This document shows positions 20,482 through 36,249 of a stretch of DNA of 64,000 nt, piece by piece. This DNA comes from Pseudaquabacterium terrae (GTDB taxonomy: Bacteria > Pseudomonadota > Gammaproteobacteria > Burkholderiales > Burkholderiaceae_C). The stretch is from assembly GCF_013266755.1 (NCBI RefSeq), contig NZ_JABRWJ010000009.1, forward strand, positions 186,001 through 250,000. Reading direction: 5' to 3'. The translations under genes and the position numbers were made by a program. The notes beneath the pieces are model-generated. The model made no database searches, had not been told where the DNA came from, and was given only the letters and a program-made list of their open reading frames with translations. The number at the start of each line of letters is the position of its first letter. The first letter of the stretch is position 1.

Positions 20482-21276
20482 TCAGGCCTCGAAGATCGCC
20501 ACCGCGCGCGTCCAGCCGGCACTGGCGCCGCGGATCTTGTGCGGGAAGCAGCTGATGGTGAAGCCGTGGGCGGGCAGCGCCTCCAGGTTGTGCAGCTTCT
20601 CCAGATGGCAGTAGCCGATGTCGCGGCCGGCCTTGTGGCCTTCCCAGATCAGCGACTTGTCGCCGGTCTCGGCCACTTTCTTTGCGGTATAGGCGAACGG
20701 CGCGTCCCAGCTCCACGCGTCGGTGCCGGTCAGGCGCACGCCACGTTCGAGCAGGTACATCGTCGCCGCGTAGCCCATGCCGCAGCCTGCGCCGAGGTAG
20801 TCGGGGCGGCCGTAGCGCGAGCCGGCGCGGGTGTTGACGACGACGATGTCCAGCGGCTGCAACTCATGGCCGATGCGCTTCAGCTCCGCCTCGACATCGG
20901 TCGCGGTCGCGACGTAGCCATCGGGGAAGTGGCGGAAGTCGAGCTTGACGCCGGGCTGGAAGCACCACTCCAGCGGCACCTCGTCGATGGTGATCGATGG
21001 GCGGCTGCCGCCGATCTTCGCGTCCTGGGTGGAATGGAAGTGCCAGGGCGCGTCCAGGTGGGTGCCGTTGTGCGTCGTCAGCGTCACCCACTCGGCCGCG
21101 GCCGCTTCGCCCTCGGGATAGTCCTCGGGCTTCGTGCCCGGCAGCATCGCCATGAACTCGGGCAGCGTGTCGGCGTGCTTCTGGTAGGTGATCTTCGGCG
21201 CCAGCGGCGGCGGGTCGGACAGCACGTCGTTCTCGAGGTAGATCGAGAGGTCGACGAAACGGCGGATTGGTTTCAT
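20482..21276 (-). CDS. cyclase family hydrolase (kynurenine formamidase/isatin hydrolase fold)
   Basis: A 264-residue member of the cyclase family, with the metal motif [12 protein letters not shown] at residues 69-80. Family members hydrolyse cyclic or linear amides and lactones (N-formylkynurenine, isatin). Here it could open a lactone or lactam formed during ring degradation. The ATG overlaps the MFS stop (ATGA), showing translational coupling. The substrate is unknown. Confidence 0.88.
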
Positions 21277-22448
21277 GCGAGGGCACTCCGGGAGGCGGCC
21301 GCCGGCGCGGGCAGCCGCGAGAAGCAGGCAACGGCGATCGTGGCGATCACCGCGGCCGCGACGGCCAGGCTGCCGTAGCCGAAGGCCTTGACCAGCGTGC
21401 CGCCGAGGATGGGGCCGATCGCCGCGCCGGTCATCACCATGGCCGGCGTCGCGGCGAGCGCCCGGCCGCTGGGCTCCAGCCGCGCGAGCAGCCCGAAGCC
21501 GAAGGTGTGGGTAAAGATCATCACCGCGGCGAACACCGAGGCGGAGGCCGCATAGGGCGCGAACACGGTGGACTGCATGATCAGCGCGACCAGCAGCGCC
21601 TGCAGCACCGGCCCGCTCAGCAGCACCGTGCGCGCCGACCAGCGTTTCTCCAGCAGCGCGGCGAGCGCCGCCGGGAACAGGTTGACCACGCTCAGCGCCA
21701 CCAGCACGCCGGTGACCGCAGCGAGCCCGAAGCCGCGCTCGTTGCCGACGCGTTCCAGGAACGCGAAGGTCATCGCCTGCACCAGGCCCATGCAGCCGAT
21801 GCCGACGACGCCGAACCAGATCGCGGACGGCATGGGCGCGCCGCGGCCGGCCGGCTCGGCAACGCGCAATGGCGCGGCGTCGCGCGCCGCCGCGCCGTCG
21901 GCATGCGGGAAGGACCCGGCCGCCACCAGCGCGGCCAGCGCCATCACCGCGGCGAAGACACGGAACAGCGCCGGCCCGCCGACCGCCGCCAGCAGCGGCG
22001 GCACCACCGCGAAGAAGGCGATCGCGAACACGCCGAGCGCGATGCCGACGAGGGCGAACAGCCGGTGCGGGTTGGCGCCGCGCGCGATCGTGCCGTGCGT
22101 GACGCTCAAGGCCGAGCCCGCCGCGAAGCCCGCCAGCGCGTGCAGCACGGCCATCGTCTTGAAGTCCTGCGACAGCGCGACGCCGAAGAAGGCCAGCCCC
22201 GCGACGCCGAAGCCCGCAGCGGTGACGGCGCGCCGCGGCAGCCGGCCAAAGCGCGGCGCCAGCATCACGCTCGCGACCACCGCCGCGGCCAGGAACAGCG
22301 TTGCCAGCGCGCCGGCCTGCTGCGGATCGAAGCCGTGGTGGCTGATCAGCGTGCCGACCCACACCGGCAGCGCGACCAGGTCGACCATGCCGGCGCAGTG
22401 CGCCACCATCAGCGCGATCCGGCCGCGCCGTGAATCTGCGGTGACCAT
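21273..22448 (-). CDS. MFS transporter
   Basis: A 391-residue inner-membrane protein with about twelve hydrophobic segments, an early acidic residue in TM1 (CAGMVDLVALPVWVG) and the mid-protein basic loop typical of the major facilitator superfamily. Within a catabolic operon it probably imports the aromatic acid or a partly degraded product. It overlaps the downstream cyclase gene by 4 bases and follows the monooxygenase gene by 13. Confidence 0.9.
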   Translation of the reverse strand: MVTADSRRGRIALMVAHCAGMVDLVALPVWVGTLISHHGFDPQQAGALATLFLAAAVVASVMLAPRFGRLPRRAVTAAGFGVAGLAFFGVALSQDFKTMAVLHALAGFAAGSALSVTHGTIARGANPHRLFALVGIALGVFAIAFFAVVPPLLAAVGGPALFRVFAAVMALAALVAAGSFPHADGAAARDAAPLRVAEPAGRGAPMPSAIWFGVVGIGCMGLVQAMTFAFLERVGNERGFGLAAVTGVLVALSVVNLFPAALAALLEKRWSARTVLLSGPVLQALLVALIMQSTVFAPYAASASVFAAVMIFTHTFGFGLLARLEPSGRALAATPAMVMTGAAIGPILGGTLVKAFGYGSLAVAAAVIATIAVACFSRLPAPAAASRSALA

Positions 22449-22461
22449 CGCAGCCCCCGGG

Positions 22462-23589
22462 TCAGATCGGCTGCGCCAGCGCCATCAGCGACTCGCGCAT
22501 GATGCGGCCGTGCTCGTCCTTGTCGCCGTTGGCGATCTCGATCTCGCCCAGGCGCGCGGAGTTCTCGACCACCATGCGGCAGCGCTCCCAGCGCCGCGCC
22601 TCGAAGGCGGCGAGCGCGGCGACGATGCCGGCATGGCGCCCGATCTCCTCGGCCAGCACGATCGCGTCCTCGATGCCGATGCAGGCGCCCGACGCCAGGT
22701 GCGGCGTCGTCGCGTGCACCGTGTCGCCGATCAGCACGACGCGGCCCGTGGACCACGGCCGCGGCATCAGCAGGCCCTCGAGCGGGCGGAACACGATCTG
22801 CGAATCGGCGCCGATCTGCTCGCGGATGCGCTGCACCAGCGGCGCCGAGAACGGCGCGAGCAGCGCGCGCAGCTGCTCCACGAAGCTCGCGGGGTCGACG
22901 TGCTCGTTGTTCGGCCGGTGCTCGGTGACGAACAGGTACATCGAATCGCGCGAGACCGGATTCACGCCCGGCTTCACGCGGCCCATCCACATCATCGCGC
23001 CCTGCACCTCGGGCGGCCGCGGCAGCACCGCGCGCCAGACGGCCTGGCCGCTGTAGCGCGGCTCCGGTGCGTCGGGAAAGAGGGTGCCGCGTACTTTGGA
23101 GTACAGGCCGTCGGCGCCGATCACCAGGTCGTAGCGGCGTCGCCCGCCGTCGGTGAAGCTGACGTCGACGCCCTCGGCGTCGGGCTCGATCTGGGTGAAC
23201 GTGCAGCCCAGCCGCACGTTGGTGCCGGAGGCCCGCGTGGCCTCGGCGAGCAGGCGGGCGAGCACCGGCCGCAGGATCGCGCCGCTGCCGGGCACGTCCG
23301 GCCCGGCCACACGCGGCGTCGGCAGCGTCGCCAGCGGCGTGCCGTCGGCCAGGAAGGTCGTCACGCCGTCGGCCGCGTTGCCCTCACGCAGGAAGGCCTC
23401 GAGGATGCCGAGCTGGCGGAACGCGCGCAGCGTCGCGCCGCCGAGGCTGATGCCGGCGCCGTAGTTGCGCCAGCCGGGGTCGATCTCGACCAGGTCGACC
23501 TGGGCGCCTCGCTTGGTGCATTCGATGGCGGCCGACATGCCGGAAAAGCCGCCGCCGATGATCAGGATGCGTCGGGCTGCGAGTGTCAT
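22462..23589 (-). CDS. FAD-dependent aromatic monooxygenase (group A)
   Basis: A 375-residue flavoprotein hydroxylase. It has the Rossmann motif IIGGGFSGMSAAI near residue 8, DLVIGADGLYSKVR (DG motif) and VLIGDTVHATTPH (GD motif). These mark the salicylate/6-hydroxynicotinate hydroxylase group, which uses NAD(P)H and O2 to hydroxylate an activated ring. It is one of three such enzymes in this operon. ATG 23589 overlaps the Rieske gene stop (ATGA). Confidence 0.92.
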   Translation of the reverse strand: MTLAARRILIIGGGFSGMSAAIECTKRGAQVDLVEIDPGWRNYGAGISLGGATLRAFRQLGILEAFLREGNAADGVTTFLADGTPLATLPTPRVAGPDVPGSGAILRPVLARLLAEATRASGTNVRLGCTFTQIEPDAEGVDVSFTDGGRRRYDLVIGADGLYSKVRGTLFPDAPEPRYSGQAVWRAVLPRPPEVQGAMMWMGRVKPGVNPVSRDSMYLFVTEHRPNNEHVDPASFVEQLRALLAPFSAPLVQRIREQIGADSQIVFRPLEGLLMPRPWSTGRVVLIGDTVHATTPHLASGACIGIEDAIVLAEEIGRHAGIVAALAAFEARRWERCRMVVENSARLGEIEIANGDKDEHGRIMRESLMALAQPI

Positions 23590-23936
23590 TGGCTTGTCTC
23601 CTCGTGCGGGGAATCGGCGAGGTGGACCTCGCCATTGGCATGGATGTGCAGCGGCACCGGCGTCAGCGACTGGCCCAGGCAGGGCCCGAGCGTGCAGCGG
23701 CCGGTGGGGATCTCGAACTGGGCGCCGTGCGCGCCGCAGACGATGCGGTCGCGCGCGGCGTTCAGGAAGGCGTTCTTGCGCCACGCCATCGGGGTGCCGT
23801 GGTGCGGGCAGGCATTGACCCAGGCGTGCAGCGCGGGCCCGTGGCGCACGACGAGGACCGTGTCGCGGCCGCTGGCATGCGGGTCGAAGCCGCGCGAGTC
23901 GCCCTCGGGCAGGTCGTCGAGGTGGCACAGGCGCAT
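23586..23936 (-). CDS. Rieske [2Fe-2S] ferredoxin
   Basis: A 116-residue Rieske protein with both ligand pairs: Cys43 and His45 (CPHHGTPM), Cys67 and His70 (CGAHGAQF). It resembles the small ferredoxins of ring-hydroxylating systems. No terminal oxygenase alpha subunit is encoded nearby, so it may donate electrons to an oxygenase encoded elsewhere or reactivate the extradiol dioxygenase iron, as XylT-type ferredoxins do (with a different cluster). It lies 20 bases after the extradiol gene and is coupled to the monooxygenase gene. Confidence 0.92.
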   Translation of the reverse strand: MRLCHLDDLPEGDSRGFDPHASGRDTVLVVRHGPALHAWVNACPHHGTPMAWRKNAFLNAARDRIVCGAHGAQFEIPTGRCTLGPCLGQSLTPVPLHIHANGEVHLADSPHEETSQ

Positions 23937-23956: not shown

Positions 23957-24910
23957 TCAGGGCTTCGCCGCCGGCGGCGCAGCGCCCTCTCCGCCCGGCG
24001 ACGGCGGACCCGAGGGTGCCCACTTCTGCCGGTACTGGAACAGGAAGGCCTGCGACGCATCGGCACCCATGCCCGTCTCGCGCGCGGTCCAGGTGTCGTC
24101 GTGCAGGTCCATGTCGGCGTCGTACTCCACGTGGCAGCCCAGCGGCGAGTTGAAGTACCAGAACCAGTTGCTGCCGTACAAGTGCCGCCCCGGGCCCCAG
24201 AAGCTCTCGTAGCCCTTCTCGACGAAGCGCGTGCCCGCCAGCAGCACCTCGGTCGGCCCGCCCAGGTGGAAGGTGAAGTGCTCGCAGCCCTTCATGAACG
24301 GCGGTGTCTCGATCATGAACAGCGTGTGGTGGTCGAGCGTGCCCGCCGGTCGCAGGAAGGGGCCGACGCCGGTGAAGCGGTCGGTGCAGACGAAGCCGAG
24401 CCGCGTGTAGAAGGCCTCGGCCTTCGCGACGTCGGGCACGAAGTAGACGACGTGCGACAGCGTGCGCGGCAGCGCCGGCATGTCGGGCGCGACGCCGATC
24501 TCGTTCGGTGCACGCTGCGGCGAGGCGCCGGGCGCGTTGACCGTCTCGGGCGCCAGCGCGAGCGGCCGGCGCACGCTGACCTGGAAAGCGAGCGCAAAAC
24601 CCATGTCGTCCACGCAGCGCAGCACGCCGTCGCGCCGGCTCACCTCGCGGTCGCGGCGCAGCTCGGCCTCGATCGCATCGAGCGTCGCGGCGTCGGCGAC
24701 GCCGTAGACGGTCTCGCGCAGCAGGCTGGCGGTGCCCAGGGCGGGCGGCAACGCCGGGTCGTCCTTCGCCCGCAGCACGACGGCTGTGCCGTCCAGTGCC
24801 TCGTAGCGGCCTGCACCCACGTCCTTCAGGCCATAGTCGATCAGGTACTGGCCGCAGGCGGCGAGGTCGTCGACGCCGAAGACCAGCGCGTCGGGTCCGA
24901 TGATGTTCAT
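23957..24910 (-). CDS. extradiol ring-cleavage dioxygenase, VOC family
   Basis: A 317-residue two-module VOC (glyoxalase-fold) protein like BphC-type extradiol dioxygenases. The C-terminal module supplies the Fe(II) ligands: His153 (LSHVVYF), His211 or His215 (HFTFH) and Glu262 in SPLGCHVEYD. The predicted reaction is meta-cleavage of a catechol made by the adjacent flavin hydroxylases. The Pro/Ala-rich tail after about 300 is unusual. The next gene encodes a hydrolase suited to the ring-opened product. Confidence 0.88.
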   Translation of the reverse strand: MNIIGPDALVFGVDDLAACGQYLIDYGLKDVGAGRYEALDGTAVVLRAKDDPALPPALGTASLLRETVYGVADAATLDAIEAELRRDREVSRRDGVLRCVDDMGFALAFQVSVRRPLALAPETVNAPGASPQRAPNEIGVAPDMPALPRTLSHVVYFVPDVAKAEAFYTRLGFVCTDRFTGVGPFLRPAGTLDHHTLFMIETPPFMKGCEHFTFHLGGPTEVLLAGTRFVEKGYESFWGPGRHLYGSNWFWYFNSPLGCHVEYDADMDLHDDTWTARETGMGADASQAFLFQYRQKWAPSGPPSPGGEGAAPPAAKP

Positions 24911-24931: not shown

Positions 24932-26098
24932 TCAGGCGGCCGTGCGTGCACCGAGGGTCTCGGCGACCCAGTCGGCGATGTACTGGCCGGCGTTGATGCT
25001 GTTGTCGAAGCTGGCGTGCTGCACGCCGCCTTCGCGGTCGGTGAAGATCTTCAGCTCGCGCTTCGGGCTGTTGACCAGCTGCTCGTAGGTGCGGTGCGCC
25101 CACTTCAGCGGGATCTGCGAATCGCGCTCGCCATGCGTCACGAGGAAGGGCACGCGGATCTTCTCGACCACGCCGTCGAGGTGCACGTCCTCGGCGATGC
25201 GCATGAAGTCCTCGATGTCCTTCGCGCCCCAGACCCAGCAGACGTGGGCCCAGTAGTGCGGCACCGGAAAGTCGCCCTCCTTCTCGAGGCGGCGCTTCTG
25301 CACGTCGCGCCAGTCGTGGTTGGCGCCCCAGGCCACGCCGCAGGCAAAACGCGGCTCCATCGCGACGGCGCGCGGGCAGTAGTAGCCGCCGAGCGAGACG
25401 CCCTCGCAGCCGATGCGCTTCGGATCGACGCCCCCGCGCGTCTCGAGCCAGTCGACCACGCGGCTGGCCCAGTGCTCGGCGTCGAAGCGCGCGGTCAGGC
25501 CCTGCAGGCGCAGCGCCTCGCCGGTGCCCGGCTGGTCGACGATCAGCGACGACACCCCGCGCCGGGCCAGCCAGGCGGGCAGGCCCACGAGGTACTTCAT
25601 CTCCTTGGTCGAGTCCAGGCCGTTGAGCTGCACCAGGACCGGCGCGCGCTGGCCCGGTGCGAGACCGTCGGCGCGGCGGTAGAGGGCCGAGAGGTGCTTG
25701 CCTTCGTACGGGATCTCGACACGCTGCACCGGGTCGCCGAGCAGCCGCATGCCCTTCTGGAACAGCGCGAGTTCACGCTGATAGATGGCCATGCGACCTT
25801 CCGAGCCATGCGCCTGCAGACGCTCGGCGGTGGTGAGGTAGGCCGACGCGCGCCGGTACTTCTCGCCGGCCGAGAGCAGGCGGCCGCGCGCCTCGTCCTC
25901 GGCGGCCAGTTCGCACAGCGTGTCGGCCATCGTCAGCCAGGTCTCGCGGAAGGCCTGCGTGCCGGCGGCATCCGGCGCCTTGGCGGCCTCCTGCAGCGGC
26001 GCGCACATCATCTCGATCTCGCCGATGCGCGCGCCCATCTCGATCGCGAGGTTGACCGAGAGGTTCCAGACGTAGTTGGTGGGGAAGTACTTGAACAT
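24932..26098 (-). CDS. alpha/beta hydrolase, DHPON-hydrolase (C-C bond) type
   Basis: A 388-residue alpha/beta hydrolase with a long N-terminal helical part (1-120) before the core. The nucleophile elbow is GVSLGG with Ser235; the acid lies in THGERDSQIP and the histidine in GGVQHASFDN. This layout matches the 2,6-dihydroxypseudooxynicotine hydrolase/FrsA-like family, which includes C-C bond hydrolases. It would cleave the product of the extradiol enzyme 21 bases downstream. ATG 26098 was chosen because the family's N-terminus begins there. Confidence 0.85.
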   Translation of the reverse strand: MFKYFPTNYVWNLSVNLAIEMGARIGEIEMMCAPLQEAAKAPDAAGTQAFRETWLTMADTLCELAAEDEARGRLLSAGEKYRRASAYLTTAERLQAHGSEGRMAIYQRELALFQKGMRLLGDPVQRVEIPYEGKHLSALYRRADGLAPGQRAPVLVQLNGLDSTKEMKYLVGLPAWLARRGVSSLIVDQPGTGEALRLQGLTARFDAEHWASRVVDWLETRGGVDPKRIGCEGVSLGGYYCPRAVAMEPRFACGVAWGANHDWRDVQKRRLEKEGDFPVPHYWAHVCWVWGAKDIEDFMRIAEDVHLDGVVEKIRVPFLVTHGERDSQIPLKWAHRTYEQLVNSPKRELKIFTDREGGVQHASFDNSINAGQYIADWVAETLGARTAA

Positions 26099-26127: not shown

Positions 26128-27345
26128 TCAGCGCGCCGCGATCGGCAGCATCTCCATCTGCGTCTCGGCGTCCTTCAGGTAGTTCTCGACCAGCATCGCC
26201 TCGAGGAAGCGGGTGTGGTCGAACACGGCATCGCGCAGCGCCGACAGCGGCCAGGGCGTGCGGTGGAAGAGGTAACCCATGTACCGGGCCATCTTCGCGT
26301 TCTTGTTCGTGTAGGCGACGCGCTGGCGGTCGTAGTGCGCCAGGCCGCGCGCCAGCGCGTCGCGCTGCGCGAGGTCCACGCCTTCGAGGCACTTCGCGAG
26401 CCACCAGCCGTCTTCGATCGCCATGCCCATGCCGTAGGCGGCATAGGGCGATACCGGGTGCACCGCATCGCCGACGAAGGACACGCGGCCCTTCGACCAG
26501 CTCGACAACGCGGGCCGGTTGTAGATCTCCCAGCGGAAGCAGTTGCGCTCGAAGTCGGTGGCCGCGGCCAGGCGCGGCAGCGGGTCGGCCCATCTGCGCA
26601 GGTGGTTCGTCAGGTGCGCGCGGACGTCGCCATCGAAATCCTGGCCTTCGTTCCACGGCTCGACCACCCACCACTCCACGGCCGGCTTGCCGTCGTGCAG
26701 GATGGGGAAGAAGCTCGCCTGCACGTTGCGCGAGTGCGAGATCCAGCCGACGTCGCGCGGCACGTCGTCGCAGTGGCACCAGGCCAGCCAGACCTGGATG
26801 CCGCAGTGGAACAGGCCCAGCTCGCCGAAGGTCTGCTGCGCCACGGTGGAACGGATGCCGTCGGCGCCGACCAGCAGGTCGGCTTCCCACCGGCTGCCGT
26901 CCTCGAAATGGGCGGTGACCGCGTCGGCCGTCTCGTCGTAGCGCGTGAAACGCTTGCCGGCCTGGATCAGGTCGGGCGGCATCACCGCGAGCAAACGTTC
27001 GATGGCCGCCGAGCGCAGCATGCCGTAGTGCCAGCCAGGGATGCCGGCACGCGCCTCGGCGCGTGGGTTGAACGGCAGCCGCGCGCGCAGCCGGCCGCGG
27101 TGGTTGCGGAACTCGGTGACGCCGTAGGCGCCGAGCTCGCGGATGTCCACGCCCATGTCGCGCAGCACCGACAGCACCGGCAGCGACAGCAGCACCGCGC
27201 CGCCCAGGGGCTTGACGGCATCCTGCCGCTCGAACAGGCGCACCTCGTGGCCGGCACGGTGGAACGCGAGCGCGGCCGCGAGTCCGCCGGGTCCGGCGCC
27301 GATGATCGCGACGCGGCGGCGCGGCACGGGTGGGGAGGCGGTCAT
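26128..27345 (-). CDS. FAD-dependent aromatic monooxygenase (group A)
   Basis: A 405-residue flavin hydroxylase. It has AIIGAGPGGLAAALAF near residue 14, LLVGADGIRSTVAQ and VSFVGDAVHPVSPYAAYGMGMAIED. It is of the salicylate/3-hydroxybenzoate hydroxylase type, acting on a hydroxylated aromatic. It is distinct from the other two flavin hydroxylases of the operon. The reading frame extends far upstream into other genes; ATG 27345 directly precedes the FAD motif. Confidence 0.92.
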   Translation of the reverse strand: MTASPPVPRRRVAIIGAGPGGLAAALAFHRAGHEVRLFERQDAVKPLGGAVLLSLPVLSVLRDMGVDIRELGAYGVTEFRNHRGRLRARLPFNPRAEARAGIPGWHYGMLRSAAIERLLAVMPPDLIQAGKRFTRYDETADAVTAHFEDGSRWEADLLVGADGIRSTVAQQTFGELGLFHCGIQVWLAWCHCDDVPRDVGWISHSRNVQASFFPILHDGKPAVEWWVVEPWNEGQDFDGDVRAHLTNHLRRWADPLPRLAAATDFERNCFRWEIYNRPALSSWSKGRVSFVGDAVHPVSPYAAYGMGMAIEDGWWLAKCLEGVDLAQRDALARGLAHYDRQRVAYTNKNAKMARYMGYLFHRTPWPLSALRDAVFDHTRFLEAMLVENYLKDAETQMEMLPIAAR

Positions 27346-27380: not shown

Positions 27381-29795
27381 TCACGAACGCGCCTTCAGCG
27401 CGCCGTAGAACGCGGCCGAGTTCGTGGCGACCTGGGGCGCGCGCTTCAGCAGGAAGTGCGCGAGCGCGGGCAGCAGCACCAGCGCGCCGAGCATGTTCCA
27501 CAGGAACATGAAGGCCAGCAGCAGGCCCATGTCGGCCTGGAACTTGATGGGGCTGGCGACCCAGGTGATGACGCCGATGGCGAGCGTCACGCCGGTCAGC
27601 ATGACCACCTTGCCGGTGAAGAGCAGCGCGCGGTAGTAGCTTTCCGACAGGCTGCGGCCTTCGCGCAGCTGCGCCAGCGTGACGCTCAGGATGTACAGCG
27701 CATAGTCCACGCCGATGCCCACGCCCAGCGCGATGACCGGCAGCGTCGCCACCTTCACGCCCATGCCGAGGGCCACCATCAGCGCCTCGGCGAGCACCGA
27801 GGTCAGCATCAGCGGCAGGATCGCGACGACCACCGCGCGCCACGAGCGGAAGGTCACGAAGGCGAGCAGCGCGACCGCGGCGTAGACCAGCGCCAGCATC
27901 GTGCGCCAGGCGTCCTTCACGACGATGTTGGTCGCCGCCTCGATGCCCGCCGAGCCGGCGGCGAGCAGGAACCTGACGTCGTCCGTGTCGTTCGCCGCGG
28001 CGAAGGCCTCGACGTGCCCGACCACGTGCGCCAGCGTCTCGGCCTTGTGGTCGCGCAGGTAGACCGAGAGCGTCAGCAGCGAGCACGCGTCGTTGTACAG
28101 GCCGCGCGGCGCGCCGGCGGTGACGGTGTTCAGCATGTCCTGGTTGGGCAGGAACTCGTACCACTTCGGGCTGCCTTCGTTCAGCCCGGCGAGCACGCGG
28201 CGGTTCAGCAGCGCCAGCGAGTTGGTGCTCTCGACGCCGCCCAGCTGGCGCAGCTGCCATTCGAGCGCGTCGATCTTGTTCAGCGTCTCGACCTGCGAGC
28301 ACTGGCCCTCGGGCGCCTTGACCATGACAGCGAGCACGTCGCTGGAGGCGCCGTAGGCCGCGTTGACGAAGGCGACGTCGCGGTTGTAGCGCGAGTCCGC
28401 GCGCAGCTCGGGCGCGCCGGGGTCGAGGTCGCCGATCTTCAGCTGCGTGCTCGCCGCGAACCCGAGCGCGCCGAGCAGCACCGCGACCATGATCGCGATC
28501 AGCGCGTGGCGCCGCTGCGTGTAGCGGTCGAGAAAGGCCCACAGCGGCTGCTTGCCGGCGCCCGCCGCATCGGCGGCCTCGGCACGCAGGCTGCGCTGGG
28601 CGGCGGTCGCGCTGACGCCGGTGTAGCTCAGCAGGATCGGCAGCAGGATCAGGTTGGTGAAGATCAGCACCGCGACGCCGATGGATGCGGCGATCGCCAG
28701 TTCGCGGATGGCCTGGATGTCGATCACCAGCAGCACCGCGAAGCCGACCGCATCGGCGAGCAGCGCGGTCAGCCCGGCAAGGAACAGGCGCCGGAAGGTG
28801 AAGCGGGCGGCGACCAGCTTCGGCAACCCGCGGCCGATGTCCTGCATGATGCCGTTCATCTTCTGCGCGCCGTGGCTCATGCCGATGGCGAAGACGAGGA
28901 AGGGCACCAGGATCGAATACGGATCGAGCGTGTAGCCCAGCGCCGGCAGCAGCCCGAGCTGCCAGACCACGGCCACCAGCGAAGCCGCCACGACCAGCAG
29001 CGTCGAGCGCACGCAGCGCGTGTACCAGAACACCGCCGCGGTGGCGATCGCGACCGCGAGCGTGAAGAAGCCCAGCACCGCGCGCACCCCATCGATCAGG
29101 TCGCCGACGATCTTCGCGAAGCCGGTGACATGGATGCGCACGCCCTGCTGTTCGTACTTCACCCGCAGGGCCTCGATGCGCTGCGCGAACGCGGCGTAGT
29201 CGAGCGCGCGGCCTTCGGCGTCGCGCGCGAGCAAGGGCACGTAGATGACGCTGGAGCGGGCGTCGAGCGCGACCAGCTGGCCGATCTCGCCCGAGCGCGC
29301 GATGTTGGCGCGCAGCTGCTCCAGGCTCTTCGGCGAGCCGTCGTAGCCGTCCGGGATCACCGGGCCGCCCTCCAGGCCCTCCTCGGTGACGCCGACCCAG
29401 CGCGTCGTCGGCGTCCACAGCGACTTCATCTGGTTGCGCGCGACGCCGGGCAGGAGGAAGACCTCGTCGGAAAGCTGTCGCAGCGTCTCCAGGTACTTCG
29501 CGTCATAGACGCTGCCCTGCGGATTCGCGACCGCGATGCGCACGGCGTTGCCCAGCCCCGTCAGCTCGCCCTGGTGCGCGAGGAAGTTGCGGATGTAGCG
29601 GTGTTCCGCCGGAATCGTCTTCTCGAAGCTCGCGTTCAGCTGCAGGCGTGTCGCCTGCCAGCCGAGCAGGATGGTGACCAGCGCGCACAGCAGCACGACG
29701 ATGGCGCGGTGGTTGAACAGCGCACGCTCGACCAGCGAGCCCGAGCGCGGGTCGAAGTCAGCGGCGACTGCGGCGGCGGACAGAGAAACCTTCAC
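27381..29795 (-). CDS. MMPL/RND family inner-membrane transporter
   Basis: An 804-residue protein with the RND/MMPL plan: one TM helix near 30-47, a large periplasmic loop, five or six TM helices (about 245-420), a second loop and a final TM block (about 640-780). It resembles hopanoid-associated HpnN-like exporters and other MMPL lipid transporters more than drug-efflux pumps; no membrane-fusion protein gene is nearby. The start is a GTG forming a GTGA overlap with the Ycf48-like gene. With the next three genes it forms an envelope module for a hydrophobic molecule. Confidence 0.92.
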   Translation of the reverse strand: MKVSLSAAAVAADFDPRSGSLVERALFNHRAIVVLLCALVTILLGWQATRLQLNASFEKTIPAEHRYIRNFLAHQGELTGLGNAVRIAVANPQGSVYDAKYLETLRQLSDEVFLLPGVARNQMKSLWTPTTRWVGVTEEGLEGGPVIPDGYDGSPKSLEQLRANIARSGEIGQLVALDARSSVIYVPLLARDAEGRALDYAAFAQRIEALRVKYEQQGVRIHVTGFAKIVGDLIDGVRAVLGFFTLAVAIATAAVFWYTRCVRSTLLVVAASLVAVVWQLGLLPALGYTLDPYSILVPFLVFAIGMSHGAQKMNGIMQDIGRGLPKLVAARFTFRRLFLAGLTALLADAVGFAVLLVIDIQAIRELAIAASIGVAVLIFTNLILLPILLSYTGVSATAAQRSLRAEAADAAGAGKQPLWAFLDRYTQRRHALIAIMVAVLLGALGFAASTQLKIGDLDPGAPELRADSRYNRDVAFVNAAYGASSDVLAVMVKAPEGQCSQVETLNKIDALEWQLRQLGGVESTNSLALLNRRVLAGLNEGSPKWYEFLPNQDMLNTVTAGAPRGLYNDACSLLTLSVYLRDHKAETLAHVVGHVEAFAAANDTDDVRFLLAAGSAGIEAATNIVVKDAWRTMLALVYAAVALLAFVTFRSWRAVVVAILPLMLTSVLAEALMVALGMGVKVATLPVIALGVGIGVDYALYILSVTLAQLREGRSLSESYYRALLFTGKVVMLTGVTLAIGVITWVASPIKFQADMGLLLAFMFLWNMLGALVLLPALAHFLLKRAPQVATNSAAFYGALKARS

Positions 29796-30862
29796 TTGGC
29801 GGGTCCCGGTTCAGTCTCGGCGCGTTGTGCGCCTTGCACGGTCAAGGCGAGCAGCGGCGCGCCCGCGCGCGGCAGCAGCCCGTTCAGCGGCGGCAGCGGC
29901 CTCGTGTTCAACGGCACCAGCCGGTCGCCCTGCAGCGCCATCACGACACCGGCCTGGCTGGCTGCCAGCAGGCGGCCGTCGGGTGCGATTGCGGTCGCGG
30001 TGATCGAGGCCGGGATCGGCACGGCGACCGACGTCCAGCTCGCGCCGCCGTCGGTCGAGCGCAGCGTGGTGCCGCGCAGGCCGGCGAGCACGATGTCCTG
30101 CTCGCCAAGCAGCTCGGCGCTGAAGAAGCTGCCCTTGTAGGGCGTCTCCACGCGGCGGAAGCTGCGCCCGCCATCGGTCGACAGCAGCACCAGGCCCTGC
30201 TCGCCGGCGAGCAGCAGCGTCTGCCCGCGCTGGCGCGCGGCGTACAGGTGCAGCCCCTTCGGATTCGGCAGGCGTGGCATCCACGACTGCCAGGTCGATC
30301 CGCCGTCCTCGCTGGCCAGCGCCAGGCCGTAGGCCCCAACGACCAGAAGACGCGGCCCGCCGAGCAGCAGCAGGTCGAGCAGCGGCTTGTCCGGCCCGTC
30401 GGCGACGAGCCGCTCGGCGTCCTGCAGCGCACGCGCATCGCCGCCGGCGCGTGCGGCGTCGAGCACGATCTGCGCGGCCTGCCGCCCGTCGAGCCGGCGC
30501 GTCCAGCGCTCACCACCATCGTCGCTCGCGAGCACCGTGCCGCCATGGCCGACCGCCCAGCCCTGCTTCGCATCGGTGAAGCGCACCGCCGTCAACGTGA
30601 CGCTGGTGGGCACCGCCGCCTGACGCCAGTGCTGCGCGCCGTCGTCCGACAGCGCCACGATGCCGCGCTCGCCGACCGCGACGATGCGTTCGCCGGCGAG
30701 CGCCGCGCCGACCAGCACGGTGCGCTCCGGCGCACGCACCACCACGGCCGGGCGCTCCAGCGCCGGCCCCGTCGGCGCCGCGCCGCTCAGCGCGGGCAGC
30801 GCCGCCAGCGTGCACGGCAGCAGCCGGCGCAGGGCGAAGGTCGACAACAGGCGCATCGTCAT
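29792..30862 (-). CDS. Ycf48-like periplasmic beta-propeller protein
   Basis: A 356-residue exported protein: a signal peptide over about 1-30, then BNR/Ycf48-type propeller blades recognisable from recurring S-DDG-W units (LSDDGAQHW, ASDDGGERW, ASEDGGSTW, STDGGRSF, STDGGASW). It is presumably a periplasmic scaffold or assembly factor for the MMPL transporter encoded by the overlapping next gene. Ycf48 itself helps photosystem II assembly; that function is not implied here. Confidence 0.88.
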   Translation of the reverse strand: MTMRLLSTFALRRLLPCTLAALPALSGAAPTGPALERPAVVVRAPERTVLVGAALAGERIVAVGERGIVALSDDGAQHWRQAAVPTSVTLTAVRFTDAKQGWAVGHGGTVLASDDGGERWTRRLDGRQAAQIVLDAARAGGDARALQDAERLVADGPDKPLLDLLLLGGPRLLVVGAYGLALASEDGGSTWQSWMPRLPNPKGLHLYAARQRGQTLLLAGEQGLVLLSTDGGRSFRRVETPYKGSFFSAELLGEQDIVLAGLRGTTLRSTDGGASWTSVAVPIPASITATAIAPDGRLLAASQAGVVMALQGDRLVPLNTRPLPPLNGLLPRAGAPLLALTVQGAQRAETEPGPAK

Positions 30863-30873
30863 CACTTTCGTCT

Positions 30874-32226
30874 TCAGCGCACGCCTTCGCCCGCCAGCGC
30901 GTCCGGCGAGAAGACGCTGTCCGGGAAGCGCGGCTTCAGCGGGTACTGCGCGGCCTTGGCGTTGTAGAGGTTGCCGATGAAGCCCTGGCCCGAGATCAGG
31001 TCGTTGAAGCCAAACGAGCCGATCGGGTTGCCCGGCAGGTCGGGTGCGACGAAGGTCTGCGCCCACAGCGTCTTCCACAGCTGGCCCTGCGCGTCCCAGC
31101 GGTCGCCGAGCACGCAGATCCAGGTGTCCTCGTCGCAGTAGTAGCGGCTCTTCGGCGCCTGGTGGCGCTGGCCTTGGCGCAGCGTCGCCTCGACCACCCA
31201 CACGCGGTGCAGCTCCCAGCGCATGTGCTCGGGGTTGAAGTGGTTCTTCGCGATGACCTCGGCGTCGGTCTTCGGCTGCAGGAAGCGGTTGGCGTTGTAG
31301 GGGATGAACATCTCCTGCTTGCCGACGAGCTTCCAGTCGAAGCGGTCGAGCCGGCCGGTCCAGACCTCGATCTCGTCGAAGCTCATCACGCCGGCCGCGG
31401 CCGGCGTCGGCGTGTCGCAGCAGGGGTTGGGCAGCTTGCGCACGCGGCGCTGGCCGGTCAGGTAGACCCAGCCCTGGCTCTTGCTGCCGTCGATGTTCTC
31501 GCGGCCGAGAATCGCCTCGCCGGCACGGATCGGCGGGCCGGCGTTGACGAGGCGGATCAGCCAGAAGTCGTTGCTCTTCGCGAAGCTCTCGGGGCTGCCG
31601 TCCTGGAAGTAGTACGGCATCTGCTGCTCGGCGCGGCCGTCGGTCGTCAGCACGGCCTTGCCGTCGGCGGTGAGCTGGTACTGGCTGATGTTGAATTCCC
31701 ACGAGGCGCCGCGCCAGCGCAGCATGTGGTTCCAGATCACTTCGGCGCCGGTCTTCGGGATCGGGAACGGGATGCCGCCGTAGGCGCCGTCGACCACGTC
31801 GCCGGCAAGCTTCGCGCGGGTCGCGTTCTTCAGCGTGTTGTCGTAGACCCATTGCGGCGCGGCCGCGGTGCGATGGGTCTTGTAGACGTCGATGCGATAG
31901 CTGTCGGGGTACTTCTTCAGCATCGCCTTCTGCCCTTCGGTGAGCTTGGCGGCGTACTGCTCGACGTTCTTGGCCGTGATCGAGAACAGCGGCTTCTCGT
32001 CCTTGAACGGATCGCCGCGGCGGCCGCCGGGCTTGTCGCCGGCGATGGGCGTGGTGTGGCCACCGCTCCATGCGGGGATGCTGCCGTCCTTGTTGCCGGC
32101 CTTCTCTGCGCCGAAGGGCGTCAGTTCGGTCTTCAGCTTCGCGGCCTCGTCGGCCGGCACGGCCGCGAGCGCGGGGCCGAAGGCCATGGCAATGCACGCG
32201 GCAAGGGTGATGCGGGTGAGGGTCAT
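30874..32226 (-). CDS. DUF1329 periplasmic protein
   Basis: A 450-residue exported protein with a signal peptide cleaved near residue 21 (FGPALAA). It has the DUF1329 hallmarks: an N-terminal LKTELTPFGAEKAGN segment, IPAWSGG, and many aromatic-rich strands, giving a LolA/LppX-like lipid-binding fold by family knowledge. It may carry a hydrophobic ligand across the periplasm between the DUF1302 outer-membrane protein and the MMPL transporter. It lies 16 bases after the DUF1302 gene and 11 before the Ycf48-like gene. Confidence 0.92.
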   Translation of the reverse strand: MTLTRITLAACIAMAFGPALAAVPADEAAKLKTELTPFGAEKAGNKDGSIPAWSGGHTTPIAGDKPGGRRGDPFKDEKPLFSITAKNVEQYAAKLTEGQKAMLKKYPDSYRIDVYKTHRTAAAPQWVYDNTLKNATRAKLAGDVVDGAYGGIPFPIPKTGAEVIWNHMLRWRGASWEFNISQYQLTADGKAVLTTDGRAEQQMPYYFQDGSPESFAKSNDFWLIRLVNAGPPIRAGEAILGRENIDGSKSQGWVYLTGQRRVRKLPNPCCDTPTPAAAGVMSFDEIEVWTGRLDRFDWKLVGKQEMFIPYNANRFLQPKTDAEVIAKNHFNPEHMRWELHRVWVVEATLRQGQRHQAPKSRYYCDEDTWICVLGDRWDAQGQLWKTLWAQTFVAPDLPGNPIGSFGFNDLISGQGFIGNLYNAKAAQYPLKPRFPDSVFSPDALAGEGVR

Positions 32227-32242
32227 GGCAGAACTCCGGCGA

Positions 32243-33967
32243 TCAGAACGTGCGGCGCAGCGACAGCGCCAGGTGGTTGCGGTCGGCCAGCGGGTTGCCG
32301 CGGCCGAAGACCGGCGTGCCGCCGGCCAGGATCGGCGAGAAGTCGACGAAGGGCTCGGCCTTGCCGATGTAGTGCGTGTAGCCCAGCGCGAACTGCCAGA
32401 CGCCGAGGTAGCTGCCTTCGATGCCGACGTTGGCGCTCCCCGTGCCCTTGGCGCCCCAGCCGGCGCCGGTGACGGACGAGCGGCCGTCCAGCACGTAGCG
32501 CAGGCCGATCGGCACGCTCAGGTCCAGCCCGGGCAGCGCCTGGCGGTAGCTGGGCGTGAAGATGAACTGCAGCGCGGTCGCGTCGCGCGTGGCGGCCTTG
32601 TCCAGTTCCTTGTGCGGGTCGTCCTTGCGCAGCACGCGGTTCCAGGCGATCTCGGCCACCAGCGTCGATTCGCGGGCGATGAAGCTCGGGCCGAAGGTCG
32701 CCAGCGTCGACAGGTTCAGGTGCGCGGTGCGGCCCAGCGCCGCATGCGGCTGCGGCGCACCGACACCGCCCGGGTAGATCATGTTGGTGCTGCGCAGCGG
32801 CATGTCGTCGCGCACCGAGGCCTCACCGGCGACGTTGAAGTCGCCGAACGAATGCGAGGCGCTCACGCCCAGCGTCTTGACGTTGGCGGGGAACTGGTAG
32901 AACCAGGTGCCGGGCTTGGTGCCCATGGGGTTGGGCGGCGCGGCCGGGTTCAGGTTGCCGTAAAGCTGGCCCGACTTGTCGTGATAGCGCGCGAAGTACG
33001 CGCCGAGGTCAGTCTCGCCGACGCGCCACTTCAGCTGCAGGCCGAACTGGCCCGAGTCCTTCGGCTTCTGGTCCGCGCCCGGCGTCAGCACGTAGTTGCC
33101 GGAGATCGGCGTGCCGGGCGGGATGCTGACGAACTCGGGTTGCTGCGATCCCCAAGGGATGTTCGCGGTCGAGAAGTAGCTGCCCGCCGGTGCGAGGCGG
33201 TCTTCCTCCCAGCGCCACTGCACATAGCCGCCGACCGAGACCTCGGGCGTGACCTGCAACTGCGCCGACAGCTGCGGCACCGGGCGGATGATCTCCTTGA
33301 ACTGCGCGTTCGGCGACGCGAGCAGCTTGTCGATGTCCACCGGCCCCTGCGCCCGCGCGATGCCGTTGTCGCCGAAGAACAGGCTCTCGCCGTACTGCAG
33401 CGCGTGGCGGCCCAGGCGCGCGGTGAGCTTCATGCCGTTGTCCATGCGCCAGCCGCCGAACACGAAGGCGTCGAGCAGCTCGGCCTTCTCGCCGGCGATC
33501 TTCTGCGTGCGGGCGGGAAACTCGTTGTAGGGCCGCTGGCCGATCGTCGGGTCGTTGTCGGCCTTCGTCCTGCCGTGCAGCTTGTCGTCGTACCAGGCCG
33601 CGCCGCTCACGCGCAGGCCGAAGTCGCGGCGCCAGATCGCATCGAACTCGGTCAGCAGGTCGGCGCGCGCGGACACCAGGCCCTTCTTCTGGAAGTTCTG
33701 GTCGCCGGCGTTGAAGTTCAGCGCCTGCGGGAACGAGAAGCTCGCCGGCGCTGGCGCCGGCGCGCCGGTGGGCACCTGGCGGAACGAGTCCTTCAGGGCC
33801 GGGTCGGCCGCTTCGGTGCGGACCTTGGCGCTCAAGCGCAGGCTGTTGTCCCAGCGCAGCGACCAGTCCGGGTGGCCGGTGTCGATCTCGAAGGCCTGCG
33901 CGCTGCAGGCCAGTGCCGCGGCGGCGGCGGCGAGCGCTGCAGGCCGCAGCGCGTGTCGGGTTCTCAT
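32243..33967 (-). CDS. DUF1302 outer-membrane protein
   Basis: A 574-residue exported protein with a signal peptide to about residue 25 (ALACSAQA), then alternating hydrophobic/polar strands and a C-terminal aromatic end (LALSLRRTF) expected of an outer-membrane barrel. It matches the DUF1302 family in its opening WSLRWDNSLRLSAKVR and the GRHALQYGESLFFGDNG block. Together with DUF1329, the propeller protein and the MMPL protein it would form the outer-membrane part of a transport system for a hydrophobic compound. Confidence 0.92.
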   Translation of the reverse strand: MRTRHALRPAALAAAAAALACSAQAFEIDTGHPDWSLRWDNSLRLSAKVRTEAADPALKDSFRQVPTGAPAPAPASFSFPQALNFNAGDQNFQKKGLVSARADLLTEFDAIWRRDFGLRVSGAAWYDDKLHGRTKADNDPTIGQRPYNEFPARTQKIAGEKAELLDAFVFGGWRMDNGMKLTARLGRHALQYGESLFFGDNGIARAQGPVDIDKLLASPNAQFKEIIRPVPQLSAQLQVTPEVSVGGYVQWRWEEDRLAPAGSYFSTANIPWGSQQPEFVSIPPGTPISGNYVLTPGADQKPKDSGQFGLQLKWRVGETDLGAYFARYHDKSGQLYGNLNPAAPPNPMGTKPGTWFYQFPANVKTLGVSASHSFGDFNVAGEASVRDDMPLRSTNMIYPGGVGAPQPHAALGRTAHLNLSTLATFGPSFIARESTLVAEIAWNRVLRKDDPHKELDKAATRDATALQFIFTPSYRQALPGLDLSVPIGLRYVLDGRSSVTGAGWGAKGTGSANVGIEGSYLGVWQFALGYTHYIGKAEPFVDFSPILAGGTPVFGRGNPLADRNHLALSLRRTF

Positions 33968-34000: not shown

Positions 34001-35122
34001 TCATGCCGGCTGCGCAACGGTCTGCGCCAGCCGTTCCATCAGCAGGTTCAGGTCGGCGCCGCTGTCGGGCTGCAGGTCCCAGCGCGCCGCGGTGGTGGTG
34101 ATGTCGTGCACGCGCCGCACGCGCTCGGCACGGCGGCGCTCGAAGGCCTCGAACAGCTCGGCGCGGCTGGTGGCGGACACCAATAACTCGCCAAGCACGC
34201 GTGCATCCTCCACGGCCTGCGCGGCCGCCTGGCCGAAGTGCGGCGGCAAGGCATGCGCGCAGTCGCCGACCGCGAGCACGGCGCCGCGGTGCCAGGGCAC
34301 GTCGAGCAGCGCCGAGCGGGCCGGGCGCAGCGTGATCGGCGTGGTCTCGTCCAGGCGCGGCGCCAGCGCACGCAGCCGCGGCGCGAAGGTGGCCAGCGCC
34401 CGACGCAGATGCGCCGCCGGCGCGACGTCCGCGGCCGGCATGCCCGGCTCGGTCAGCGCGAGGCCAGCCTGGTCGTGTCGCACGGGCACCAGCACCGCGC
34501 GCCGGCCGGCGTCGCCGAAGGCGATCAAGGGGCGGTCGAGATCGACGGGGCGCGGCAGCAGCGTGTACCACCAGGCCTGGCCCAGCTCGGCCGCCGGCAT
34601 CGCCTGCGGGAACAGCGCGCGCGACAGCGCGCTGCCGGCGCCCGCCGCGAGAACGACAAGCTCGGCCTCGACCGACTCACCCCCCTCCAGCGCGACCCGT
34701 GCGAAACCCGTGTGCTCGTGCACCGCCTGCACCCGCGCGGCGCGCCGCAGCGCCACGCCGCGGGCCACCGCCTCGCGCTCCAGCAGCCGATGCAGCTCGT
34801 CGTGGCGGATGCCCAGCGCGGCCGGGAAGCGCGGGCCGGCCAGGCGCTCGGTCGGCAGCTCATGCAGGTGCCGGCCGTGGCGATCGATGACGTCGATGCC
34901 GCGGTAGGGAAAGCCGGCGCGCACGCAGTGATCGCCGACGCCGAAGGCCGCAAGGTCGCGCAGCATGTTCGGCACCACCTCGATGTGCGCGGCCAGCGCA
35001 CGCGGCTCGGCCGCCTCGTCGAGCAGTTGCACCGACAGCCCGCGGTCCACCGCGGCCAGTGCGCAGCACAGGCCGGCGAGGCCGGCGCCGATCACGCAGG
35101 CGCGCATCGGGCGCTGCGTCAT
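34001..35122 (-). CDS. FAD-dependent monooxygenase (group A)
   Basis: A 373-residue flavin hydroxylase and the first gene of the 16-gene operon. Motifs are CVIGAGLAGLCCALA (residues about 8-22), a basic residue run after LAAHIEVVPNMLRDL, and VLAVGDCAHALPPHFGQAAAQAVED. ATG 35122 has a GAGGTG ribosome site; the frame is open to 35257 but the FAD motif should start within ten residues. It lies opposite a NahR/NodD-type LysR gene, an arrangement common for salicylate-hydroxylase-like genes. Confidence 0.9.
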   Translation of the reverse strand: MTQRPMRACVIGAGLAGLCCALAAVDRGLSVQLLDEAAEPRALAAHIEVVPNMLRDLAAFGVGDHCVRAGFPYRGIDVIDRHGRHLHELPTERLAGPRFPAALGIRHDELHRLLEREAVARGVALRRAARVQAVHEHTGFARVALEGGESVEAELVVLAAGAGSALSRALFPQAMPAAELGQAWWYTLLPRPVDLDRPLIAFGDAGRRAVLVPVRHDQAGLALTEPGMPAADVAPAAHLRRALATFAPRLRALAPRLDETTPITLRPARSALLDVPWHRGAVLAVGDCAHALPPHFGQAAAQAVEDARVLGELLVSATSRAELFEAFERRRAERVRRVHDITTTAARWDLQPDSGADLNLLMERLAQTVAQPA

Positions 35123-35257
35123 CGCGGCACCTCGTGCATCGCAGGCGTGAGTTCGCCCTCCGCATGGCCGCAAGCCATTCGTTGTCTCCGTGTCGTTGTG
35201 GGGGATGGGTTGACGAGAGGTTACGCAACTCGACCCATTCAGCAAAATGGTTTGCAT

Positions 35258-35272
35258 CCATGCGGTGCATGG
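35258..35272. promoter_or_regulatory. inverted repeat CCATGC-GGT-GCATGG, candidate LysR operator
   Basis: Perfect 6-base arms (35258-35263 and 35267-35272) lie in the 188-base region between the divergent monooxygenase and LysR genes. The region is locally AT-richer (35235-35255) and probably holds both promoters. Confidence 0.4.
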
Positions 35273-35310
35273 ACCCTGTGAATACTTTCCGGGTAATCCC
35301 GAAGGCCGGC

Positions 35311-36249
35311 ATGCGCTTCAACAAACTCGACCTGAACCTGCTCGTGGCGCTCGATGCACTGCTGACCGAAGCCAGCATCACGCGCGCGGCCGAGCGAGTG
35401 CACCTGTCGCAATCGGCGATGAGCAATGCGCTCGGCCGGCTGCGCGACTACTTCGAGGACGAGCTGCTGGTGCAGGTGGGCCGCCGCCTCGAACTGACGC
35501 CGCGGGCCGAGGTGCTGCGCGAAGCGGTGCGCGACGTGCTGGTGCGCATCGACACCTCGATCGCAGCGCAGCCGCAGTTCGATTGCACCAGCTCGGACCG
35601 CGAGTTCCGCCTGTCGATCTCGGACTACTCGATGGAGGTGCTGCTGCCGCGGGTTCTCGCGCTCGCCGCGGAGCAGCGCAGCACGGTGCGCTTCCGGCTG
35701 CAGCCGCAAGTGGCGCATCCGGCCCGCGCGCTGGAGCGTGGCGACGCCGACCTGCTCGTGATCCCGAAGGCCTACGTCTCGCCGGACCATGCGACCGAGC
35801 TGCTGTTCAACGACGAATTCGTCTGCGCCGTCTGGCGCGACAGCAGCCACGCGCGCCAGGGCCTGAGCTTCGAGCGCTACGCGAGCGCGGGGCATGTGGT
35901 GATGCAGCCGGTCGACACCGACAAGCCCGCGTTCGAGAGCTGGTTCGTGCAGCGTTACGGCCTGTCGCGCCGGGTCGAGGTGACGACCTACAGCTTCGCC
36001 GCGATGCCCTTCCTCGTCGTCGGCACGGAGCGCATTGCGACGGTGCATGCGATGCTGGCGCGGGCCATCGAGGCGGCGCTGCAGGTCACGCTGCTGCCGC
36101 TGCCGCTGCCGATGCCGCCCTTCGAGCAGGCGATGCAGTGGCACAAGCACCGCTCGCTCGATCCCGGCCTGATGTGGCTGCGCGGCCTGATGCACCGGGC
36201 GGCGCAGGGCCTGCAGGACCCCGCCGCCGCGGCACCCGCCGGCCGCTGA
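35311..36249 (+). CDS. LysR family regulator, NahR/NodD type
   Basis: A 312-residue LysR protein. Its opening MRFNKLDLNLLVALDALL and the helix-turn-helix (SITRAAERVHLSQSAMSNAL) are of the NahR/NodD/SyrM group, which typically senses aromatic acids. The effector domain begins near residue 90 and the tail keeps the LPLPLPMPPFEQAMQWHK end of that group. ATG 35311 is preferred from family start sites; ATG 35269 is possible. It is divergent from the 16-gene operon and is its probable activator. Confidence 0.92.
   Translation: MRFNKLDLNLLVALDALLTEASITRAAERVHLSQSAMSNALGRLRDYFEDELLVQVGRRLELTPRAEVLREAVRDVLVRIDTSIAAQPQFDCTSSDREFRLSISDYSMEVLLPRVLALAAEQRSTVRFRLQPQVAHPARALERGDADLLVIPKAYVSPDHATELLFNDEFVCAVWRDSSHARQGLSFERYASAGHVVMQPVDTDKPAFESWFVQRYGLSRRVEVTTYSFAAMPFLVVGTERIATVHAMLARAIEAALQVTLLPLPLPMPPFEQAMQWHKHRSLDPGLMWLRGLMHRAAQGLQDPAAAAPAGR

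Follow-up and report, generated by a model that had tools for sequence, protein, structure and literature searches.

Four consecutive genes in Pseudaquabacterium terrae encode envelope proteins of the AmeABCD type, and it is well supported that this cassette sits inside an operon of the fde type. The genes lie in a 64,000-nucleotide stretch of contig NZ_JABRWJ010000009.1 (positions 186,001 to 250,000), hereafter the window. On a fuller reading, which we judge evenly poised between right and wrong, the four proteins form an AmeABCD-type trans-envelope system that serves a flavonoid-degradation operon of the fde type under an FdeR-like regulator, with the first two proteins replacing the FdeA step and the substrate moving inward. 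An earlier note on this DNA had drawn from the same genes the idea of a coherent pathway that takes a hydrophobic compound across the envelope, and that idea is supported, the set being without a membrane-fusion protein or TolC and linked to catabolic enzymes. The fde context was absent from that note.

The cassette runs from 33967 to 27381 on the minus strand in the order A-B-C-D, where A stands for DUF1302, B for DUF1329, C for the Ycf48-like protein, D for the MMPL/HAE3 RND protein and ABCD for the full set. A (32243..33967; PF06980, E 3.3e-117) is an AmeA-type outer-membrane beta-barrel with a signal-like N-terminus and a C-terminal Phe that is invariant in 37 of 37 aligned sequences, and B (30874..32226; PF07044, E 2.1e-127) is an AmeB-type periplasmic protein placed in the LolA superfamily by hhalign comparison with LolA_like. 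C (29792..30862; PF14870, E 2.7e-19), which starts with an ATG at 30862, is an AmeC-type Ycf48-like propeller and the partner of D (27381..29795; PF03176, E 4.7e-19; TIGR00921, E 3.6e-46), the AmeD-type RND transporter. Signal-like segments, judged by eye, open A, B and C, with a hydropathy peak in A and B. Coordinates and family matches bear out the arrangement first noticed in the sequence, with a gap of 16 bases between A and B, one of 11 bases between B and C, and a 4-base overlap, GTGA, between C and D; DUF1302, DUF1329, COG4447/Ycf48 and HAE3-RND genes follow one another in the order that marks an AmeABCD-type set. As had also been claimed, a scan of 18 cluster proteins gave no membrane-fusion or TolC family among its matches at E <= 1e-3, which leaves the set without the membrane-fusion protein and TolC-type channel of a tripartite HAE1-type RND pump.

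The four families travel together well beyond this locus. The window's genome alone holds four A-B-C-D cassettes, the D proteins of the other three being 62, 66 and 55% identical to the window's D. Across 120 genomes surveyed in the order, a search with the L092 paralogue (E <= 1e-80) found 20 copies of D, spread over 13 genomes. The 25 DUF1329 copies that passed E below 1e-100 come from those 13 genomes as well, and a further 17 genomes gave only weak and partial DUF1329 matches. Of the 25, nineteen are no more than 5 kb from a D gene, one is at 10 kb, and five, all in one genome of the window's family (G113), have no D near. That genome has six full-length DUF1329 copies and one D. All four families occur within 13 to 19 kb at 18 of the 20 RND loci of this sample, window included; the exceptions are a locus with C-D only (L156) and one where the contig ends after B (L159). 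The conserved co-occurrence on which the earlier note had staked its proposal is therefore strong. C adjoins D in every one of 50 D loci examined, comprising 30 of 47 matches in genomes picked for fde loci and all 20 from the 120-genome sample, and the gene orders met were A-B-C-D, B-A-D-C and split pairs. Chance co-occurrence was rejected, given the four cassettes in the window's genome and the presence of D and DUF1329 in the same 13 genomes.

The cassette is part of a 20-kb operon that matches the fde (naringenin A-ring cleavage) cluster, with a divergent LysR gene and B-to-J families that follow one another as they do in Herbaspirillum. In the six Herbaspirillum reference loci (L014, which is shortened, L018, L022, L023, L025 and L028), the genes after LysR begin with the same enzyme order as the window, with FdeA in place of A-D. 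In the window the position of fdeA as first gene is taken by a flavin monooxygenase gene, FMO1, and A-D, and chemoreceptor and binding-protein genes intervene between the FdeG-type and FdeH-type genes. A Herbaspirillum FdeA query found no match in the window's genome at E <= 1e-3. A Diaphorobacter locus (HDW4B) reads LysR, A, B, C, D and then the same enzymes as the window. As the linked enzymes are fde-type, flavonoids are indicated as the substrate class; a terpenoid or lipid substrate for this copy was set aside, since those enzymes match fde. Substrates given for hydroxylation by FdeE are flavanones, flavones, isoflavones and flavonols (PMC11303751).

Comparison of fde loci shows that ABCD and FdeA exchange in one slot. 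A scan with the FdeC-type dioxygenase gave 436 relatives, the best 80 of which formed a first locus set; FdeA was sought by tblastn with five examples at E <= 1e-6 and A-D with the window's proteins at over 80 bits, settings that diverged forms may escape. Among these best 80, ABCD was present at 41 loci, FdeA at 23 and a TonB receptor or porin at 4, with no such module seen at 6 and 6 too short to judge. In 33 of the 41 ABCD loci all four genes are on the same strand and upstream of the dioxygenase gene, and the other eight are Pseudomonas-type, with parts of A-D in the stretch examined and D next to it. FdeB-C-D-E genes lie close together at 67 of the 80 (ABCD 32, FdeA 23, other 4, none 2, too short 6); the remaining 13 comprise nine with ABCD and four with none. 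A second set of 14 loci, made up of four of the five non-window matches of an order-wide search and 10 of 22 plasmid records picked for variety, gave ABCD at 5, FdeA at 5, both at 0 and neither at 4, with species overlap with the first set possible. The fifth order-wide match (L167), left out of the counts, also has A-D in the FdeA slot. Combined, 88 judged loci comprise 46 with ABCD, 28 with FdeA, none with both and 14 with neither, five of the last having a TonB receptor or porin (raw Fisher p 7e-13 for exclusivity, relatedness ignored). The best quick FdeC-plus-FdeB tree, from which one locus of the first set (L063) is missing, requires no fewer than 7 changes of state, and if only its well-supported branches are counted, the FdeA label still has to change at least 5 times. 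Four of the FdeA-slot proteins match PF13557 (Phenol_MetA_deg) and one is annotated "transporter"; in Pseudomonas CIP-10, a carbohydrate porin precedes the same fde enzymes. The cassette is itself modular, as A-B alone stands between LysR and FdeB in Azospirillum B510 and at L173, where C-D comes later in the operon.

That the cassette stands in for FdeA, porins or a TonB receptor speaks for a role in entry. In the scheme that we infer, covering substrate, complex formation, energy use and direction, the barrel A and the carrier B would take over the outer-membrane step that we ascribe to FdeA in Herbaspirillum-type operons. C would dock on D, and D, driven by the proton gradient, would swap hydrophobic substrate with B on the inner-membrane side. 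The net effect would be to bring a poorly soluble flavonoid from the outer membrane towards the cytoplasm, where FdeE/D would 8-hydroxylate it and FdeC/B cleave its A ring. That A-D constitute an RND-driven importer, in which a proton-powered MMPL protein, a propeller and a LolA-superfamily shuttle draw hydrophobic plant compounds inward from an outer-membrane barrel, is a proposal we make tentatively. In Pseudomonas putida, PP_0765, PP_0766, PP_2018 and PP_2019 are all needed on Tween 20, and published co-folding gives a strong PP_2019-PP_2018 pair (C-D) and weak pairs of PP_0766 with PP_0765 and with PP_2019 (B-A and B-D) (PMC10866462). Also in favour are the near-single clade of the fde-linked D proteins, the operator-like motif shared by ABCD and FdeA loci, and the remote homology of B to LolA_like, all set out below.

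Several observations weigh against entry. The entry role of FdeA itself is presumed and unproven, and, to our knowledge, characterised RND/HAE3 proteins are exporters. Well-supported branches yield 7 independent pairs; FdeA goes opposite to ABCD in about 4 of them and never in parallel, which at p about 0.125 is not significant on its own, and the test stayed underpowered because the order-wide search for more fde loci found 5 of 399 genomes. Exclusivity holds for the locus only: Paracidovorax wautersii has FdeA at its fde locus (L013) and a full cassette elsewhere (L145, D 73% identical), and in Massilia putida (L175) A-D and a porin share one long cluster. Exclusive use of a slot can also arise when one gene replaces another whose function it does not share. 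Among loci of at least 17 kb (13 shorter ones left out), the MFS gene is kept in 21 of 21 FdeA loci versus 27 of 38 ABCD loci, the eleven without it being the eight Pseudomonas-type loci and L012, L015 and L069. The operator-like motif described below is weaker in ABCD loci. Finally, deletion of ameABCD in Castellaniella defragrans led to somewhat more Nile Red being taken up with carbonyl cyanide m-chlorophenylhydrazone (CCCP) added, and limonene tolerance was lower in the mutant, from which the authors propose efflux (PMC6394551).

These last phenotypes are the core of the leading alternative, an efflux or tolerance pump in which D and C would draw toxic flavonoid, or what its hydroxylation yields, out of the inner membrane for B to carry and A to release. 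AmeABCD has been interpreted in this way in print, and the view accords with the predicted role in coping with toxic aromatics of same-four-family operons in the AphS, AphR and AphT regulons (PMC6449761). Among solved structures and models, D comes closest to HpnN, MmpL and HAE3 proteins, and LolA-type carriers usually move lipids outward. The cassette that P. wautersii retains besides FdeA is what would be expected of an added pump. Set against this, related operons fill the slot with known or presumed entry channels (FdeA, a TonB receptor or porins), and a tolerance pump should often join an entry channel, whereas ABCD and FdeA meet at 0 of the 88 judged loci. The C. defragrans mutant also matched wild-type growth with acetate and up to 5 mM limonene (PMC6394551). 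An efflux role is possible and leans towards doubtful, and we put uptake somewhat ahead of it.

A role in envelope maintenance or in vesicles ("nanopods"), with the set repairing or reshaping the outer membrane when hydrophobic substrates are present, appears improbable. DUF1302 and DUF1329 proteins do occur in Delftia nanopods and are encoded in its phenanthrene cluster (PMC3110197), and a benzene degrader expresses a "Nanopod" cluster with DUF1329, YCF48 and MMPL (PMC13101534), its DUF1329 protein being only 21% identical to the Delftia one. The fde-linked D proteins, however, form almost one clade, which a general envelope function would not need: on a FastTree D tree, the label of these 43 of 84 rows changes 4 times, versus a shuffled mean of 28.3, and the "other" rows inside the group include two from fde-like contexts, L096 and L141 (locus L167).

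That the cassette is a passenger, in the operon by chance and serving another substrate, is very improbable: three further cassettes elsewhere in the genome speak for it, as does the Paraburkholderia sprentiae plasmid cassette described next, while all four genes lie upstream of the dioxygenase gene and on its strand at 33 of 80 loci, and among the 32 such loci with FdeB upstream of FdeC, 18 have a divergent LysR gene upstream of A and 14 have none in the DNA examined. The P. sprentiae plasmid pl2WSM5005, typed as conjugative and from a root-nodule symbiont, carries a complete cassette (L168) whose D is 81% identical to the window's, and none of the window's fde-type proteins has a match (E <= 1e-8) in the 30 kb around it.

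The importer proposal gives B the part of a LolA-like carrier, and profile comparison supports a remote homology of DUF1329 to LolA_like proteins. With hhalign, DUF1329 (36 sequences) matched PF17131 LolA_like (13 sequences) at 93.4% (E 2.5e-7, 184 columns), and control comparisons of B with A, C and D gave 0.3 to 1.1%. Against the PF17131 model itself, B scored 21.7 bits, under the cut-off of 30. LolA proper as a direct relative of B was unsupported (0.9%), and LolA_like compared with LolA proper gave 31.7%. A search of solved structures by sequence found no useful relative of A or B, with the LolA-like entry 4z48 only at E 0.2. The LolA-like carrier of the earlier note is thus supported at the level of sequence profiles. 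An MMPL/RND neighbour was present at 22 of 23 LolA_like loci versus 0 of 24 loci of LolA proper (about 1.5 kb on each side); the former (L208-L230) are the best-scoring of a search, with 1 of 24 (L207) left out for a wrongly picked frame. As LolA_like genes adjoin MMPL genes, the pairing of a LolA-type carrier with MMPL extends beyond this cassette. In the window's genome, too, a LolA_like gene adjoins an MMPL gene (L093).

In D, the Pfam MMPL model covers only the C-terminal half (575-785), and TIGR00921, the NCBIfam HAE3 model, scores 157.6 bits, below its curated cut-off of 351.9. Hydropathy peaks, grouped by eye, fall into 6+6, with loops at about 50-229 and 450-631 and a weak extra peak at 474-492. 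Two motifs, GxSHxxQ in transmembrane helix (TM) 4 (residues 305-311) and GxGxDYxxY in TM10 (693-701), are invariant in 32 of 32 aligned D proteins, and MmpL4 and MmpL5 have an Asp-Tyr that aligns with the one in TM10. In canonical MmpL proteins, each half carries such an Asp-Tyr. The Ser-His in TM4 versus Asp-Tyr in TM10 of D raises the question of whether its proton relay could be asymmetric.

The rest of the operon lies on the minus strand, and the fde letters B and F to J in its gene names are in part presumed. Its first gene, FMO1 (34001..35122), encodes a FAD monooxygenase (PF01494; PRK06847 at E 1.1e-71, below cut-off), and a second one, FMO2 (26128..27345; PF01494), has an alternative GTG start at 27384. 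The two flank the cassette and were found by best match at 11 (FMO1) and 2 (FMO2) of the 38 ABCD loci of at least 17 kb. In an fde-like cluster on Roseomonas mucosa plasmid p1 (L177), two flavin-monooxygenase fragments are annotated flanking an IS5 transposase. Next come an FdeB-type alpha/beta (prolyl-oligopeptidase-like) hydrolase (24932..26098; PF00326), 81-83% identical to the six Herbaspirillum loci, an FdeC-type extradiol (VOC) dioxygenase (23957..24910; PF00903; 82-84% to the same six and 75% to L061), an FdeD-type Rieske ferredoxin (23586..23936, open frame up to 23960; PF00355) and an FdeE-type flavin monooxygenase of the flavonoid 8-hydroxylase type (22462..23589; PRK06847 at 528 bits, over cut-off; 72-75% to the six). 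An FdeF-type MFS transporter (21273..22448; PF07690) and an FdeG-type cyclase-family protein (20482..21276; PF04199) follow. The methyl-accepting chemotaxis protein (MCP) within the operon (18827..20479; PF00015, PF00672) and a periplasmic binding protein (17637..18830; PF13458) have overlapping genes, and taxis towards flavonoids through this pair is possible. The pair (17637-20479) is also present in a Hydrogenophaga flava locus (L035), and in Azospirillum B510 an MCP comes after the fde-type operon. Beyond these are an FdeH-type cupin (16988..17566; PF07883), an FdeI-type fumarylacetoacetate hydrolase family protein (15968..16966; PF01557) and an FdeJ-type NAD-dependent epimerase (14983..15963; PF01370).

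Divergent from the operon, on the plus strand, is the FdeR-type LysR regulator (35311..36249; PF00126, PF03466), which is 55-58% identical to the fde-adjacent LysR of the six Herbaspirillum loci. The promoter region between (35123..35310) contains a putative operator, matching ATGGATNNNATCCAT at 11 of 12 positions. A ATGGATNNNATCCAT-like site with at least 9 of 12 positions was found in 41 of 48 LysR-side regions versus 11% of randomised sequences, and one with at least 10 of 12 in 27 of 48 versus 1.5%. At these two thresholds the site occurs in 17 and 7 of 20 ABCD loci, and in 23 and 19 of 23 FdeA loci. These statistics are descriptive, because the consensus was derived from the same locus set.

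The earlier note had called the system functionally undescribed, a view we reject because the same four families in the same order have been studied as AmeABCD; the AmeABCD work (PMC6394551), the Aph regulons (PMC6449761) and the P. putida set (PMC10866462) all precede it. Among the open-access papers searched, none joined flavonoid, naringenin or isoflavone degradation with MMPL, YCF48 or DUF1302. The 19 of them naming DUF1302, DUF1329, PP_0765/0766 or AmeABCD made no flavonoid link in the title or the start of the abstract, and a search by product names gave nothing. A study of olive polyphenols (PMC10004623) was rejected as a DUF1329 link, as DUF1329 is merely among the identified proteins listed there.

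How poorly soluble aromatic, terpenoid and lipid substrates enter across the bacterial envelope is an open question, and it is from tolerance and dye data that the published outward direction of AmeABCD derives. Operons in which a single outer-membrane protein takes the place of the cassette are a natural complementation experiment, able to decide between uptake and efflux. DUF1302 and DUF1329 gain a concrete candidate substrate class, flavonoids, which is relevant to root-associated bacteria. If the importer proposal is true, the cassette would be the flavonoid counterpart of TonB or FadL-type entry in other settings, and would form one branch of a broad class of transport modules that pair LolA-like with MMPL proteins.

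Among known systems, C. defragrans AmeABCD (DUF1302, DUF1329/LolA superfamily, COG4447 and HAE3), which is tied to growth on and tolerance of monoterpenes (PMC6394551), matches the window's cassette in its four families, in their order and in lying next to genes for the breakdown of a hydrophobic plant compound. Its deletion mutant grows poorly on apolar monoterpenes and normally on perillyl alcohol and acetate. The system differs in lying in a monoterpene island and in its efflux reading, whereas the window's cassette is in an fde-type flavonoid operon, and the two are likened by family and order, not by AmeD sequence. The P. putida set shares DUF1302, DUF1329, a periplasmic protein and an RND transporter with the window, but by locus number it forms two separate gene pairs, PP_0765/PP_0766 and PP_2018/PP_2019, and its substrate is Tween 20 or a release product thereof (PMC10866462). 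HpnN and MmpL3/4/5, MMPL/HAE RND transporters, resemble D in RND sequence similarity and the aligned Asp-Tyr of TM10, but D has the invariant Ser-His of TM4 and, as partners, a propeller and a LolA-type carrier. The Variovorax ifc isoflavone cluster shares FdeE-like and FdeC-like enzymes with the window, and an alpha/beta hydrolase listed as fde-like, while its isoflavone-specific IfcA is 36% identical to FdeE (PMC11069340). The naringenin-degrading Herbaspirillum fde operon (PMC10799723, PMC8552027) shares with the window a divergent LysR gene and, judged from the Herbaspirillum loci examined, an identical succession of enzyme families; the window differs in having A-B-C-D for FdeA (Phenol_MetA_deg) and, in addition, two flavin monooxygenases and a chemoreceptor/binding-protein pair.

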